A stretch of 64,000 bases of DNA. It comes from an uncultured Lachnospiraceae bacterium (GTDB taxonomy: Bacteria; Bacillota; Clostridia; Lachnospirales; Lachnospiraceae). The stretch is taken from NCBI GenBank assembly GCA_949948715.1, contig CATLGW010000008.1:1-64000 (forward strand), read 5' to 3'. The notes under the pieces were generated by a model. It did no database searches, was not told where the DNA came from, and saw only the letters and a list, made by a program, of their open reading frames with translations. Positions 1-47,511 of this stretch are shown piece by piece. Every line of letters starts with the position of its first letter. Positions within the stretch are counted from its first letter, which is position 1. The translations under genes were made by a program, and so were the position numbers.

Positions 1-302
1 GCATCTTCCCGGACAGTGCCGGAACAATGTCCGACGGTGCCAATCAGACGGACGTTGTTCTGCCAGATTGGTACCGGGAGGGAAGATGGGGAACTAAAAA
101 CGATCCAGCATCTTCCCGGACAGTGCCGGAACAATGTCCGACGGTGCCTTTCAGACGGACATTGTTCTGCCAGATTGGTACCGGGAGGAAGATGGGGAAC
201 TAAAAACGATCCAGCATCTTCCCGGACAGTGCCGGAACAATGTCCGACGGTGCCTTTCAGACGGACATTGTTCTGCCAGATTGGTACTGGGAGGGAAGAT
301 GC
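1..302 (+). repeat. Three tandem copies of a ~90-nt hairpin element
   Basis: Units start at 1, 108 and 214; the first two are followed by an ~18-nt linker and the third runs into the proA ribosome site. Each unit folds on itself. The outer arms are GCATCTTCCC and GGGAAGATGC, perfect in unit 3. The inner arms are GAACAATGTCCG and CGGACATTGTTC; unit 1 has CGGACGTTGTTC, which still pairs through a G-U. A related copy lies before serA at 40864-40954. The window begins exactly at a unit boundary, so more copies may lie to the left. The repeats are open in the proA frame by chance; proA has its own start further on. Confidence 0.85.
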
Positions 303-327: not shown

Positions 328-1578
328 ATGACTGACTTGACGCAAATGGGGCAGCGGGCCGTGGCGGCCAAATACGAGCTGCAAAGACTGACCCCCCGGG
401 AGAAGAACGGCGTTCTTGCGCGGGCGGCAAAGCTGCTGACCGACAGAACGGAAGAAATCCTCGCCGAGAACGCGAGGGATATGAGGAACGGAGAGGAGAA
501 CGGTATGCATCCCGGTATGCTGGACAGGCTTCGTCTCACCGGACAGCGCATGGAGGCCATGGCCCAGGGACTTTTGCAGATTGCCGAGCTTCCGGACTGT
601 GTGGGAGAGGTGCTGGAGCGCACCGTGCGCCCCAACGGCATGGAGATCGAAAAGGTGCGGGTGCCCATGGGTGTCATCGGCATTATCTATGAGTCCCGGC
701 CCAATGTGACTGCGGATGCCTTCGGGCTGTGTTTTAAGACGGGAAATGCCGTGATCTTAAAGGGGGGCAGCGACGCCATTTACTCCAACCTGGCCATCGT
801 AAGGGTGCTGCAGGACGCTTTGGAGGAGTGCGGGGTCTGCCGAGACGCGGTTTCCCTCATCGAGGATACCGACAGAAAGGTGACGGCAGAGTTCATGCGG
901 CTGAACCAGTACGTGGACGTACTGATTCCCCGAGGCGGCGCGGGGCTGATCCGCAGCGTGGTGGAGAACAGCACCATTCCGGTGATCGAGACCGGCACGG
1001 GCAACTGCCATGTGTATGTGGACCGGGACGCCGACCTGGAAATGGCGGCGGATATTATCTTTAACGCCAAGACCCAGCGTATCGGCGTGTGCAATGCCTG
1101 TGAGTCGCTGGTAGTCCACAGCAGTGTGAGAGAGTTTTTTTTGCCAAAGCTGGCAGGGCGGCTTCGGGAAAAGCAGGTGGAGCTTCGAGGGGACGAAAGG
1201 GTCAGGGAGATTTTGGGGGAAGAGTGTGTTCCCGCCTGTGAGGAGGATTACGGAAGGGAGTACCTGGACTATATTCTCTCCATAAAGACCGTGGATTCCC
1301 TGGAGGAGGCCATCGACCATATCAACCGATACAGCACAAAGCACTCCGAGTGCATTGTCACAAAAAACCCTGAGGCGTCGGAAAAGTTCCTGCGGGAAGT
1401 GGATGCGGCCTGCGTCTACGCCAATGTGTCCACACGCTTCACGGACGGATTTGAGTTCGGATTCGGCGCGGAGATCGGCATCAGCACCCAGAAGCTTCAC
1501 GCCAGAGGCCCCATGGGCTTACGGGAGTTGACCTCCTATAAGTATATTATTCGCGGGAACGGACAGATCCGCCCTTGA
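328..1578 (+). CDS. proA: Glutamate-5-semialdehyde dehydrogenase (gamma-glutamyl phosphate reductase)
   Basis: This cytosolic enzyme reduces gamma-glutamyl phosphate to glutamate-5-semialdehyde with NADPH, the second step of proline synthesis. The 416-residue length is normal. The aldehyde-dehydrogenase fold is evident, with the active-site cysteine in [14 protein letters not shown] and the conserved segments [19 protein letters not shown] and [20 protein letters not shown] chose the ATG at 328 because AAAGGAGG lies just upstream and family proteins start here. An upstream in-frame extension would only translate the hairpin repeats. The usual partner proB is not in the window and may lie to the left. 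The hairpin array ends about 10 nt before the ribosome site, so control of proline synthesis there is plausible but inferred. Confidence 0.97.
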
Positions 1579-6176: not shown

Positions 6177-7817
6177 ATGAAAAGAAAAAGTTTAAACAAA
6201 GTGCTCGCGCTTATGCTTGCATCCACCATGGCTTTAGGGCTGGCAGCCTGCGGCAATGACGACAGCGGCAAGAGCAGCGACGCGGGCAGCACACCTGCGG
6301 GAAGCAGCGCGCCTACAGGAAGCACTGCGGATGCGGCGAACACCGGTTCCGACCAGGCATCCACTCCCGCTGAGCGTCAGACCATCTCTTTCAGCGCCAT
6401 CGACGTGAATGCGGGCTCCAACAATACCGGTGAGTATGCGCAGCAGATTCTGGATCAGATTCAGGACTACACCGGTGTGAACATCGATCTGAGCTGGGTT
6501 GCAAACGATACCCTGGAGGAGAAGAACGGTCTGTATCTGACCAGCCCTTCCACCATGCCCAATATTATCACCTGGGGGGGTACTTTGACTGGTAATGTGG
6601 CCAGTGCGGCAAAGAACGGCGCGTTCGTAGATCTGAACGATTACATCTGGGATTCCGAGAAGTATCCCAATCTGTCCGGTATGGCAGAGGGTGTGGCGGC
6701 AAACCTGACCGTAGACGGCCACCTGATCGCGATTCCCCGTACCCGTGTGGTAGGACGTAACGGACTCTCCTATCGTACCGACTGGGCAGAGAAGCTTGAG
6801 CTCGCAGAGCCCAGCACTCCCGAGGCAGTGTATGATATGCTGTATGCCTTCACCTACAATGATCCTGACGGAAACGGACAGGACGATACCATCGGCATGG
6901 AGATGACGCTTCACACCGGTCCCTTCGATATCATCCAGACCTGGTTTGGCTGCGGCAACGGATGGGCTGAGGTGGACGGAAAGCTGGTTCCCGTGTGGAT
7001 GCAGGATGAGTACATGGAGGCTGTAGATTATATCAAGGGCCTGTATGACGACGGACTTATGCCTGCCGACTGGGCGACCAGACCTACCGATACCTGGTCC
7101 GACGGATGTAAGAAGGGTGAGAACGGCGTGTTCATCGACGTGCTTGACTCCGGAAAGCGTATCTGGAACTATTTCGTGGCTGAGGAGACCTACACTCCCT
7201 CTGTTGTCAATCCGGATGAGAGCGCCAGAATGACTCTGTACGGCGCAGTGAATGACCGCACTCTGGCAACCGCAGGCTATGCGGGGTATTACACTCTGTC
7301 CGCTACCACGCTGGATACCCCGGAGAAGATTGAGGCAGCTCTGACTCTGTTAGACAAGCTCAACGATCCGGAGATGCTTATTCTGACTCAGTATGGTATC
7401 GAGGACCTCAACTACAAGATGGAGGACGGCTACCTTGTAAAGCTTGACCAGGAGGATAAGGTTCTGTCCAACAACTACATGGGCCTGAATCAGCTTCTGG
7501 CATTCCTTCCTTCCACCGAGGCTGCAAACTCTTATATCCCTCTTAAGAGAAACGAGCGCGACCAGGCACAGGAGGACGCTTACGCTGCCGCTCTGCCGAA
7601 GGCTGTTCTGAACCCTGCGCTGTCCTTCCTGGCAAATTCCCCGACCTATGCTGACGACGGAAAGACCCTGGACGATGCGGTTACGGCAGCGAGAACTCAG
7701 TATATCTGCGGCGCTATCACCAAGGAGCAGTTTGAGCAGGCTATCCAGACCTGGAGAGACCAGGGCGGTGACAAGATCATCGAGGAAGTAAACGCTCAGT
7801 TTGAGGCTAACAAGTAA
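6177..7817 (+). CDS. Extracellular sugar-binding lipoprotein of the ABC importer
   Basis: A 546-residue solute-binding protein. A lipoprotein signal peptide (MKRKSLNKVLALMLAS...) ends in the lipobox LAAC, so Cys24 would be acylated and the protein tethered outside the membrane. A Ser/Gly/Ala/Thr-rich linker follows to about residue 63, then a large binding domain as in LplA/YtcQ proteins. The ribosome site AAAGGAGGAAAAA is strong. Codon use is more biased than in neighbours (many GCA, CTG, AAG), which fits high expression. It is followed by a hairpin terminator. Specificity for rhamnogalacturonan oligosaccharides is inferred from the PL11 lyase and GH2-like enzyme nearby. Confidence 0.93.
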   Translation: MKRKSLNKVLALMLASTMALGLAACGNDDSGKSSDAGSTPAGSSAPTGSTADAANTGSDQASTPAERQTISFSAIDVNAGSNNTGEYAQQILDQIQDYTGVNIDLSWVANDTLEEKNGLYLTSPSTMPNIITWGGTLTGNVASAAKNGAFVDLNDYIWDSEKYPNLSGMAEGVAANLTVDGHLIAIPRTRVVGRNGLSYRTDWAEKLELAEPSTPEAVYDMLYAFTYNDPDGNGQDDTIGMEMTLHTGPFDIIQTWFGCGNGWAEVDGKLVPVWMQDEYMEAVDYIKGLYDDGLMPADWATRPTDTWSDGCKKGENGVFIDVLDSGKRIWNYFVAEETYTPSVVNPDESARMTLYGAVNDRTLATAGYAGYYTLSATTLDTPEKIEAALTLLDKLNDPEMLILTQYGIEDLNYKMEDGYLVKLDQEDKVLSNNYMGLNQLLAFLPSTEAANSYIPLKRNERDQAQEDAYAAALPKAVLNPALSFLANSPTYADDGKTLDDAVTAARTQYICGAITKEQFEQAIQTWRDQGGDKIIEEVNAQFEANK

Positions 7818-39698: not shown

Positions 39699-40784
39699 AT
39701 GTCAAGGATTTTCAATTTTTCCGCCGGACCTGCGGTTCTGCCGGAGGAGGTTTTAAAGGAAGCAGCGGAGGAGATGCTGGATTACCGGGGAAGCGGTATG
39801 TCTGTGATGGAGATGAGTCACCGCTCCAAGGTGTATGATGATATTATCAAGGAGGCGGAGGCAGACCTGCGGGAACTGATGAACATTCCCGACAATTACA
39901 AGGTGCTGTTTTTGCAGGGGGGAGCCAGTCAGCAGTTTGCCATGATCCCCATGAATCTGATGAAGAATAAGAAGGCGGCTTACATAGTGACCGGACAGTG
40001 GGCAAAGAAAGCGTACCAGGAGGCAAAGCTCTATGGGGAGGCGGTGGAGGTAGCGTCCTCCGCAGACCAGACCTTCTCTTATATTCCCGACTGTTCCGAC
40101 CTTTCCATCCCTGAGGATGCGGACTATGTGTATATCTGTGAAAATAATACCATCTACGGCACGAAGTTTCACACCCTGCCCGACACCAAGGGACACACGC
40201 TGGTGGCGGACGTGTCAAGCTGCTTCCTGTCAGAACCTGTGGACGTGTCCAAATATGGCGTGATCTACGGCGGCGTACAGAAGAACGTGGGGCCTGCGGG
40301 TGTGGTGATCGTGATTATCAGAGAGGATCTGATCACGGAGGATGTGCTTCCGGGCACTCCCACCATGTTGCGTTACAAGACCCATGCGGACAATGATTCC
40401 CTCTACAACACGCCTCCCACCTACGGCATCTATATCTGCGGCAAGGTATTTAAGTGGCTGAAGGCAAAGGGCGGACTGGCCGCCATGAAGGAGTACAATG
40501 AGAAGAAGGCAAAGCTTCTCTACGATTTCCTGGATCAGAGCAGCTTGTTTAAGGGAACCGTGCGGAAGGAAGACCGCTCCCTGATGAACGTGCCCTTCGT
40601 GACCGGCGACGCCGAGCTGGACGCTAAGTTTGTGAAGGAGTCCAAGGCTGCAGGCTTGGAGAATCTGAAGGGTCACAGAAGCGTGGGCGGTATGCGCGCC
40701 AGCATCTACAACGCTATGCCCATGGAGGGAGTGGAGAAACTGGTGGAGTTTATGAAGAAATTTGAGGCAGAGAACCTGAAATAA
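39699..40784 (+). CDS. serC: Phosphoserine aminotransferase
   Basis: A 361-residue PLP enzyme that makes phosphoserine from 3-phosphohydroxypyruvate and glutamate. Seen are FNFSAGPAVLPEEVL at the start, GMSVMEMSHRSKVYDDI, LFLQGGASQQFAMIPMNL, the PLP lysine in GGVQKNVGPAGVV, and the final GHRSVGGMRASIYNAMP. ATG 39699 follows GAGGAGGAGACAAAA; an upstream start at 39603 would precede the promoter. serA follows, so two of three serine-pathway steps lie together. Confidence 0.97.
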   Translation: MSRIFNFSAGPAVLPEEVLKEAAEEMLDYRGSGMSVMEMSHRSKVYDDIIKEAEADLRELMNIPDNYKVLFLQGGASQQFAMIPMNLMKNKKAAYIVTGQWAKKAYQEAKLYGEAVEVASSADQTFSYIPDCSDLSIPEDADYVYICENNTIYGTKFHTLPDTKGHTLVADVSSCFLSEPVDVSKYGVIYGGVQKNVGPAGVVIVIIREDLITEDVLPGTPTMLRYKTHADNDSLYNTPPTYGIYICGKVFKWLKAKGGLAAMKEYNEKKAKLLYDFLDQSSLFKGTVRKEDRSLMNVPFVTGDAELDAKFVKESKAAGLENLKGHRSVGGMRASIYNAMPMEGVEKLVEFMKKFEAENLK

Positions 40785-40804
40785 AATAGGTCAAGAATTT
40801 TTAA

Positions 40805-40839
40805 GTATCTGCCGATGATGGTACTGGGAGGGCAGATGC
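40805..40839 (+). repeat. Internally deleted copy of the hairpin element
   Basis: TATCTGCC at 40806-40813 and GGCAGATGC at 40831-40839 form the outer stem, joined by the 3' part of the element (GATGGTACTGGGA). The inner hairpin is missing. It sits about 25 bp before the full copy. Confidence 0.65.
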
Positions 40840-40863
40840 GGAACAAATCAAGAACTGTTTACA

Positions 40864-40954
40864 GCATCTGCCCGGCCAGTGCCCAGAACAATGTCCGGCT
40901 GAGTCATACAGACGGACGTTGTTCTGTATGTGATGGTACTGGGAGGGCAGATGC
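40864..40954 (+). repeat. Full hairpin element upstream of serA
   Basis: A 91-base relative of the units before proA. The outer arms are GCATCTGCCC and GGGCAGATGC. The T-A pair of the proA copies is a G-C pair here, so pairing is kept by changes on both sides. The inner arms are GAACAATGTCCG (40886-40897) and CGGACGTTGTTC (40913-40924). GGAACTTAAAAGGAG with the serA ribosome site follows directly, as before proA. Confidence 0.85.
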
Positions 40955-40978
40955 GGAACTTAAAAGGAGAAACGAGCA

Positions 40979-42142
40979 ATGTATAAGATCAAATGTCTGA
41001 ATCCCATCTCGCAGGTGGGACTTACAAAACTGACGGCCGATTATCAGGTTACGGAGGAGCTGAAGGAGGCGGAGGGCGTACTGGTCCGCAGCGCGGCCAT
41101 GCACGATATGGAACTGCCTGACAGCCTTCTGGCGGTGGCCAGAGCCGGCGCGGGTACAAACAATATCCCGCTGGATAAATGTGCGGAGAAGGGTATCGTA
41201 GTGTTCAACACACCCGGGGCCAACGCCAACGGGGTGAAGGAGCTGGTGGTGGCGGGTATGCTTATGGCGGCCCGGGATATCGTGGGCGGCATCCAGTGGG
41301 TGAGGGAGAACCAACAGGACGAGAACATCGCCAAGGCGGTGGAGAAGGAGAAAAAGAAATTTGCGGGCACGGAGCTTATGGGAAAGAGGCTGGGCGTAAT
41401 CGGCCTGGGCGCCATAGGCTGCAGGATTGCCAACACCGCCATCAATCTGGGCATGGAGGTGTACGGCTACGACCCCTATTTGTCCGTAAACGCGGCCTGG
41501 AACATCAGCAGAGACGTAAAGCATGTGCTGAACGAGGATGAGATTTATGCACAGTGCGACTATATCACCGTGCATGTGCCTCTTTTGGATTCCACCAGGG
41601 GCATGATCAACAAAGAGGCCATCTCCAAGATGAAGGACGGCGTGGTGATCTTGAACTTCGCCAGAGATCTTCTGGCGGAGGAGAAGGATGTGATACAGGG
41701 GATTGAGGAGGGAAAGATTGCCCGCTATGTGACGGATTTCCCCAATACCACCACGGCGGGAGCGCCCGGCTGCATCGTGATTCCTCATTTGGGAGCCAGC
41801 ACCGAGGAGTCCGAGGACAACTGCGCGATCATGGCGGTGCAGGAGATAATGGACTATCTGGAGAACGGCAATATCAGAAACAGTGTGAATTACCCCGCCT
41901 GTGACATGGGTGTCTGCAGGGGAGCCGGCAGAGTTGCCATTTTCCACAAGAACATTGCCAATATGATTACCAAATTTACCGCGGTGTTCGGCGAGAAGGG
42001 CATCAATATCAGCGATATGACCAACAAATCCCGGGGGGAGGTGGCCTACACCATGATGGATGTGGATTCCGCCCTCACAGGGGATATCGTGGAGAGTCTT
42101 GAGAGCATCGACGGAGTCTTCAGAGCAAGGATTGTAAAATAA
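40979..42142 (+). CDS. serA: D-3-phosphoglycerate dehydrogenase
   Basis: A 387-residue NAD-dependent enzyme that starts serine synthesis from 3-phosphoglycerate. The Rossmann motif is GKRLGVIGLGAIGCRIAN. The catalytic Arg is in NFARDLLAEE, and the Glu and His lie further on, with His in VIPHLGASTEESEDNCA. A C-terminal ACT-type domain (about 315-387, NKSRGEVAYTMMDVDSA) could bind serine for feedback control. ATG 40979 has AAAAGGAG upstream, directly after the hairpin element. The usual ARGG is altered to ARDL, as in many clostridial members. Confidence 0.96.
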   Translation: MYKIKCLNPISQVGLTKLTADYQVTEELKEAEGVLVRSAAMHDMELPDSLLAVARAGAGTNNIPLDKCAEKGIVVFNTPGANANGVKELVVAGMLMAARDIVGGIQWVRENQQDENIAKAVEKEKKKFAGTELMGKRLGVIGLGAIGCRIANTAINLGMEVYGYDPYLSVNAAWNISRDVKHVLNEDEIYAQCDYITVHVPLLDSTRGMINKEAISKMKDGVVILNFARDLLAEEKDVIQGIEEGKIARYVTDFPNTTTAGAPGCIVIPHLGASTEESEDNCAIMAVQEIMDYLENGNIRNSVNYPACDMGVCRGAGRVAIFHKNIANMITKFTAVFGEKGINISDMTNKSRGEVAYTMMDVDSALTGDIVESLESIDGVFRARIVK

Positions 42143-47438: not shown

Positions 47439-47511
47439 GCTGAAATAGCTCAGTTGGTAGAGCACTTCACTCGTAATGAAGGGGTCGTGGGTTCGAGTCC
47501 CATTTTCAGCT
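47439..47511 (+). tRNA. tRNA-Thr (anticodon CGT)
   Basis: A complete cloverleaf of 73 bases. Acceptor arms GCTGAAA and TTTCAGC pair over 7 bp, the D arm contains AGCTCAGTTGGTAGAGC, the anticodon stem CTTCA/TGAAG encloses the loop CTCGTAA with anticodon CGT at 47472-47474, and the T arm contains GTTCGAGTCC. The 3' CCA is not encoded. CGT reads ACG threonine codons. It stands alone with its own promoter and terminator. Confidence 0.95.

Follow-up and report, generated by a model that had tools for sequence, protein, structure and literature searches.

The window, meaning the whole 64,000 nt stretch analysed here, comprises the start of contig C8 in a Lachnospiraceae genome (G000) that was assembled as 54 contigs totalling 2.29 Mb and is estimated to be 66.7% complete. 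Towards its middle lie two adjacent genes, presumed to be serC, on the grounds of sequence and position before serA, and serA itself, the name we assume for a 387 aa open reading frame (ORF); the most likely serC start is MSRIFNFSAGPAV at 39699. The gap between them contains a 91 nt hairpin and, upstream of this, a shortened relative, and three similar units form an array at the very beginning of the contig, in front of a gene taken to be proA (Table 1). Searched against Rfam at gathering scores, neither the window nor 20 loci gave any match at the element, the window's only match being a tRNA gene at 47439-47511; when E values up to 10 were admitted for five loci, just an unrelated miRNA model over one copy was returned (23.5 bits, cut-off 66).

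Table 1. Positions in the window of the genes and hairpin components at the serC-serA gap and the proA array
Feature	Position	Strand	Details
serC (presumed)	39699..40784	+	upstream operon gene; ORF listed from 39603
Shortened family unit	40804..40852	+	covariance model R1 match, 24.7 bits, E 3.6e-4
Full hairpin unit before serA	40864..40954	+	91 nt; R1 match, 117.4 bits
Outer helix, 5' arm GCATCTGCCC	40864..40873	+	pairs with 40945-40954
3x3 internal loop, 5' side GGC	40874..40876	+	opposite 40942-40944 (GGA); GNA in most copies
Middle helix, 5' arm CAGTGCC	40877..40883	+	pairs with 40935-40941 (GGTACTG), including one G-U pair
Apical helix, 5' arm	40884..40897	+	pairs with 40913-40926
Apical loop	40898-40912	+	
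3' bulge	40927-40934	+	
Outer helix, 3' arm GGGCAGATGC	40945..40954	+	pairs with 40864-40873
Conserved single-stranded tail GGAACTTAAAA	40955..40965	+	
serA Shine-Dalgarno AAGGAG	40964..40969	+	
serA (presumed)	40979..42142	+	387 aa; D-isomer specific 2-hydroxyacid dehydrogenase family; ATG at 40979
proA array unit 1	1..89	+	contig starts here
proA array unit 2	108..195	+	
proA array unit 3	214..302	+	followed by GGAACTAAAAAAAGGAGG and ATG at 328
proA (presumed)	328..1578	+	416 aa; aldehyde dehydrogenase family

The unit before serA has a predicted folding energy of -61.3 kcal/mol, compared with -30.1 +/- 3.4 kcal/mol for 200 dinucleotide shuffles, none of which was as stable (z -9). A scan of positions 40700-41000 found no promoter, no terminator-like site and no T-run in the tail. 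The interval to which the original prediction applied, 40805..40978, also takes in the shortened unit, which consists of the 5' outer arm GTATCTGCC followed, after deletion of the middle, by the 3' part TGATGGTACTGGGAGGGCAGATGC and GGAAC, and which is still predicted to fold alone.

The proA array likewise folds far more stably than expected (z -8.8), and its three units start 107 and 106 nt apart. An identical copy of the first unit is found at the 3' end of contig C39 (L148), downstream of what is presumably a proB-like ORF and a 188 aa ORF. Because the same unit ends one contig and begins the other, the sequence suggests that C39 and C8 join in the order proB-like ORF, 188 aa ORF, array, proA, in which case proA probably belongs to the operon of the proB-like ORF.

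The original prediction drew attention to a compensatory change between the two loci. The G-C to T-A double change in the outer arms is real when the serA unit is set against the third proA unit, whose arms are GCATCTTCCC (214-223) and GGGAAGATGC (293-302); the arms described for proA as a whole are those of this unit only, the first two having imperfect ends (unit 1 ends in GATGG, as does unit 2, which also lacks one G). The inner arms are kept in outline, as had been claimed, but not exactly: the apical helices of the serA unit and proA unit 3 differ at two wobble positions, and the latter is one base shorter at the junction of the inner helices. Both loci do continue into GGAACT(T)AAAA, a Shine-Dalgarno sequence and an ATG (at 40979 for serA and 328 for proA). 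A single compensating pair between two loci is weak evidence on its own, and the case for a structured element rests on the wider family. The 10-mer GCATCTKCCC by itself occurs 23 times in the window with up to one mismatch against an expectation of 15.9, a mild enrichment only.

BLAST searches revealed many copies of the hairpin elsewhere in this genome, and a covariance model (R1) built from 21 units returned 78 rows in it, reverse-strand echoes included. The full collection, defined as the R1 matches in fetched loci, holds 233 units at 183 places, and takes in G000, G064 and G075 largely as the searches returned them, with other genomes represented by single loci. From one set of 156 R1 rows, 31 reverse-strand echoes were left out together with L089, which by its length and place is taken to share a contig with L155; L172, whose forward rows duplicate those of L234, was removed at a later stage. 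Most places hold a single unit (143), with 31 double, eight triple and one fourfold. G000 itself contributes 45 units at 30 places, which is probably an underestimate of its copy number, since eight of its 54 contigs (C8, C16, C17, C25, C26, C35, C39 and C49) begin or end in or beside arrays.

The family extends to other members of the genus. R1 matched 15 of 61 genomes drawn from it, G000 being one of them, and 14 of 28 genomes picked from it, four of which were shared with the first draw; at E values up to 1e-6 there were 71 matches in G064 and 91 in G075. Spread beyond the genus was considered and rejected, in that none of 115 other genomes of the order was matched under strict filters that may lose weak matches (95 of these genomes are not listed individually, and one that is listed belongs to the same genus). 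Seven named genomes with exact matches to a sequence pattern are all Lachnospiraceae or Clostridia, including one labelled [Clostridium] symbiosum. Carriage by phage was discarded similarly: 21 viral stretches contain a short pattern from the element and R1 matches seven of them weakly, and none of the 21 holds a unit on inspection by eye, so that these are attributable to chance.

The typical unit is about 91 nt long, with consensus ends AAAACAGC...GCGGAACT and a median folding energy of -47.4 kcal/mol over 206 units. In an alignment of 21 units from this genome that was not fitted to the model (A1), both partners vary in 13 of 35 pairs. The covariation anticipated by the original prediction is much more extensive in an alignment of 92 units from many genomes (A3), where this is true of 30 of 31 pairs; in neither alignment was the observed number reached by any of 500 shuffles. 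Standard pairs make up 92.8% of the paired cells of A3, as against 35-43% when the partner is slid. Both A3 and A4, the largest set, composed of 102 units from G064 and G075, were fitted to R1, and their members were picked by a model score that favours paired copies. The family keeps its structure and not its sequence, and the view of it as a structured, dispersed element with strong covariation is supported.

Evidence that this structure is maintained in RNA comes from the strand on which it pairs. Of the two strands, the sense strand gives the more stable fold in 184 of 206 units and its complement in 20, and G-U pairs outnumber A-C mismatches in every alignment (174 against 17 in A4, 121 against 33 in A3 and 32 against 13 in A1). 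Counted pair by pair in a sign test, the G-U excess is significant in A4 (22 against 3, p 1.6e-4) but not in A3 (14 against 7, p 0.19) or A1 (8 against 6, p 0.79), and one middle-helix pair supplies 48 of the 121 G-U pairs of A3. The excess is seen in both GC-type and AU-type pairs, and a coding-strand C-to-T bias alone is therefore no explanation. Certain unpaired parts are also conserved, namely an A before the stem, the GNA/GNA form of the 3x3 loop joining the outer and middle helices (61 of 92 units in A3 and 70 of 102 in A4) and a tail beginning GGAACT (81 of 92 and 81 of 102, respectively). On inspection by eye, AAAAC frequently flanks the element on its left and NAAAA frequently forms its tail outside this genome.

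The placement of the units relative to genes is equally constrained. Ten of the 183 places are too near a contig end to be assessed; at 166 of the remaining 173, an ORF of at least 60 aa starts on the same strand within 65 nt of the GGAAC; measured from the initial G of that word, the earliest of these starts lies 20-32 nt away at 136 of the 166 places. Five of the seven exceptions run, by eye, into another unit missed by R1, leaving L137 and L073. A Shine-Dalgarno-like word begins 10-14 nt past the first G of GGAAC in 126 of 164 cases, with no word from the list used in 27. By a crude comparison in the reverse direction, an ORF starts within 60 nt on the other side of 26 of 94 arrays. Upstream, 131 of 161 classified places follow a co-directional gene, 27 an opposed one and three none (12 were left out); ORF calls were mechanical, and some of the opposed ones are probably spurious antisense ORFs. 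The distance from the upstream stop to the element is loose, with a median of 39 nt and quartiles of 22 and 105 nt, whereas that to the downstream start is narrow, and it is accordingly the downstream start to which the elements are anchored. The gaps that hold them are likely to be co-transcribed.

The genes that follow are of many kinds. A Pfam search of the 24 genes called as ORFs downstream of elements in this genome left three without a match and placed others, in some cases by names we presume from their family, as serA, proA, RidA-like, DJ-1, SpoIIIAF, cytidylate kinase, a PHP-domain protein, an ABC permease, RNase E/G, SecD/F, PlsY, IMP cyclohydrolase, leucyl-tRNA synthetase, an aminotransferase, an aconitase-family protein, glycosidases and a GntR regulator. 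The candidates for amino-acid biosynthesis are serA and proA, with the aminotransferase and the aconitase-family protein as possibles, and the 36 of 57 downstream genes searched in G064 are equally mixed. Judged by the gene list itself, amino-acid biosynthesis is not their common theme. The distribution of copies is far from random, being tied to gene starts, but these are the starts of genes of many functions and not preferentially those of amino-acid genes. As a separate observation, genes for aminoacyl-tRNA synthetases recur downstream of elements, with alaS, gltX, pheS, pheT and asnS among the 36 of 57 genes searched in G064 (L166, L168, L234 and L248) and leuS in G000 (L134); that they are commoner than expected in G064 is an uncontrolled impression formed after the fact.

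Comparison of units indicates how the family has grown. Median identity is 97% within an array and 63-74% between different arrays of one genome, with 65% between units of G064 and G075 and 58% between those of G000 and either. These levels mean that duplication within arrays is of recent date and that dispersal looks mostly old; G000 appears to have expanded its set independently.

Individual sites turn over between relatives. At the serA loci of 47 relatives, one per genome, R1 found no element, leaving this genome as the only positive. The serC-serA gap is 193 nt in G000 and, by the same counting, 32, 21 and 32 nt in the three best-matching relatives, G157, G112 and G033, none of which has an R1 match anywhere in its genome (94, 94 and 81% complete, respectively); in many element-free relatives these genes are separated by a short gap or overlap. 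Two of the element-free relatives, G157 and G033, have the same AAGGAGAAA Shine-Dalgarno sequence (AAGGAG) before serA. As this is shared with genomes that lack the element, the ribosome site is older than the serA element and was not brought by it, and most simply the element arrived in this lineage.

Similarly, 11 of the 59 element-bearing places of G064 could be located in the examined part of G075, and only two of these orthologous sites match R1, one strongly and one weakly, which implies that no single site is indispensable. Inspected by eye, the other nine comprise four that retain either a decayed hairpin or a tail resembling GGAAC (L240, L243, L248 and L263), two with an unrelated hairpin (L237 and L260) and three with no trace (L156, L245 and L252). 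Strong positional conservation was rejected on further grounds, since only three orthologue pairs exceeding 90% identity exist among the 57 downstream proteins of G064 and the 51 of G075. Filled and empty versions of one site are found, then, both at serA and between G064 and G075.

The reading towards which we lean, while stopping short of confidence in it, is that of a stem-loop within operon mRNAs by which the message of the downstream gene is protected or processed. A stem-loop of about 91 nt, lying in the sense direction in a gene gap with its base usually some 25 nt before a start codon, would be transcribed within the operon mRNA; cleavage near the stem base or in the upstream gene might then leave the stem-loop marking and protecting the 5' end of the downstream cistron, where it would block 5'-to-3' decay and so set the level of the downstream gene apart from that of its upstream neighbour. 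Copies would multiply locally by tandem duplication and appear at new sites. The proximity of the base to the start, the constraint on the sense strand and the looseness of the upstream side make a role on the 5' side of the downstream cistron the simplest. There is precedent in the cip-cel mRNA of Ruminiclostridium cellulolyticum, in which intergenic stem-loops direct cleavage and protect the resulting ends, and a 5' stem-loop lifted the half-life of a reporter from 5.3 to 45.3 min, according to the available part of that report (PMC10311766). Against protection, the stem-loops tested in another study altered the upstream and not the downstream transcript, as far as the accessible text of that study states (PMC4423207). 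The lack of significance of the by-pair G-U bias in A3 and A1, the choice of members by score and the retention of only two of 11 sites also count against it.

Selfish or passively mobile DNA, resembling MITEs or REP sequences, is the foremost alternative, albeit an unlikely one. The hairpin would in that case be the target of a transposase or recombinase, with no gain to the host, and its orientation and spacing would stem from a preference for A-rich stretches before Shine-Dalgarno sequences. Dispersal, near-identical tandem units and the turnover of sites between relatives are all expected of such elements, and the AAAAC left flank and NAAAA tail could, by eye, be a target sequence, though this is suggestive only and no parent element was found. 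Mobilization of the RAYT/REP type was dismissed, as PF01797 (Y1/RAYT), the only enzyme family searched for, is missing from seven of the eight genomes with most R1 matches (G000, G019, G021, G064, G065, G067 and G075, with one in G083); G064, G021 and G065 are 97-98% complete and the other four PF01797-free genomes 61-80%. Moreover, copies have diverged yet remain paired, on the RNA-sense strand, and by eye an ORF or another unit follows at all but two of 173 places. Purely selfish DNA accounts less well for the strand bias and for the anchoring to starts.

A quite unlikely alternative is that the stem-loop insulates translation, shielding the next start from upstream ribosomes or RNA structure so that downstream translation becomes independent. 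A position about 25 nt before a start codon is just outside the footprint of the 30S subunit, and coupling is likely in the many element-free relatives whose serC and serA are close or overlapping; however, most copies already have some gap past the upstream stop. A site for a global RNA-binding protein, recognizing the stem base, the GNA/GNA loop and GGAAC and thereby defining a genome-wide post-transcriptional regulon, would account for the conservation of just these unpaired parts, but is highly doubtful given that the target genes have no evident common function and that membership changes between relatives.

The regulator specific to genes for the first steps of amino-acid biosynthesis that was originally proposed, whether riboswitch, T-box or other leader, owes its appeal to the presence of the element before both serA and proA in the window; it was rejected on the mixture of downstream genes and the absence of the element from serA in relatives, and with no Rfam match to set against these it is left with very little probability. 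An intrinsic terminator or attenuator within operons, for which a very stable G+C-rich stem might speak, has next to no likelihood, as the stem at serA is followed by its conserved tail and not by a T-run, the tails read at other copies show no T-run either, no terminator-like site was seen around serA, and the stem keeps a fixed distance from the start codon ahead of it but not from the stop behind it. What the data support is a general 5' element acting at the level of RNA.

Several known repeats are akin in kind. The ERIC or IRU elements of enterobacteria are about 127 bp in length. They are likewise dispersed imperfect palindromes in transcribed intergenic regions and are reported to affect mRNA stability in a manner for which orientation is crucial, in the available part of the source (PMC2229807). 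As described there, they differ in destabilising the upstream transcript, whereas the present hairpin is start-anchored and has a near-universal orientation. In the Bacillota, the bcr1-bcr18 repeats of Bacillus cereus are intergenic, in some cases structured and MITE-like, and co-transcribed in untranslated regions or operons, and bcr3 was correlated with a longer mRNA half-life; the available portion of that description has them in 5' UTRs, 3' UTRs and operon gaps and gives no fixed spacing to the start (PMC3446304). REP sequences and REPINs, associated with RAYT transposases, are also short palindromes present many times per genome and often between co-directional genes, from the accessible part of the report (PMC3733652). 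By contrast with the hairpin, of around 91 nt and with neither tag in its consensus ends, REPs are 20-40 nt long with a GTAG or CGTC tag, and they lie mostly downstream of coding regions instead of being anchored to a downstream start codon.

The closest functional parallel is with the SRPS stem-loops of Clostridium (Ruminiclostridium) cellulolyticum, which sit in operon gaps, direct cleavage and protect ends (PMC10311766, PMC4423207, both as partially available). The present family shares with these a stable stem-loop in an operon gap, assuming co-transcription; the SRPS are individual structures as described in those parts, unlike a single homologous family with tens of sense-oriented, start-anchored copies per genome. 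No description of the family was found in the titles and abstract beginnings covered, and it may correspond to an unnamed entry in the catalogues of structured families (PMC2267715, PMC8040213, as available in part). The combination that we have not seen described is that of one homologous family, a fixed sense orientation and a fixed distance to the start codon.

A broader proposal, held tentatively as a possibility, is that these hairpins form a genome-wide class of portable 5' RNA modules anchored to start codons, in which a homologous, gene-less stem-loop has spread between operon-internal ribosome-binding sites, is kept only for its shape on the sense strand, and rewires the relative output of genes sharing a transcript. 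Were this so, dispersal would have to be aimed at Shine-Dalgarno regions, or selection would have to remove copies elsewhere. Dispersed bacterial hairpins are usually regarded as clutter or as 3'-end stabilisers; should a start-anchored, strand-constrained family hold up, it would amount to a set of parts for translation or mRNA stability that occurs in nature and evolves. Because sites come and go between related species, the same gene can readily be compared with and without an element, making the function of the repeat directly testable in this genus. In one case (L061 1398-1603, in G021), a tandem pair of units directly precedes a gene that we take to be rplL-like, at a locus that also carries an Rfam L10 leader; since more L7/L12 than L10 is made, this site would be a good natural test.

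Other sequences occur beside the element. Several single-unit elements, belonging to more than one species, are immediately preceded by a 22 nt box similar to AGTCCGGCTAAGAAATGTCAAG, with instances in G000 at C4:28891, C7:46897, C1:90035 and C9:12425 (L204-L207), the C9 box being 3' of a short element, and at L033, L035, L085 and L092. The box was rejected as a regular component of the element, since this genome has only four copies within three mismatches. A second family of short palindromes, of the GAGGATCnnnnGATCCTC type, was noticed by eye between GGAAC and the Shine-Dalgarno sequence, or just before the stem, at L074, L156, L168, L240, L248 and L252 of G064; gaps can therefore hold several hairpin families. 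Unrelated hairpins also replace the G064 element in G075, at L315 near 6352-6381 and at L321 near 6314-6342, one of the two consisting of tandem TTTGGAAGTAAAACTTCCAAA-like units.
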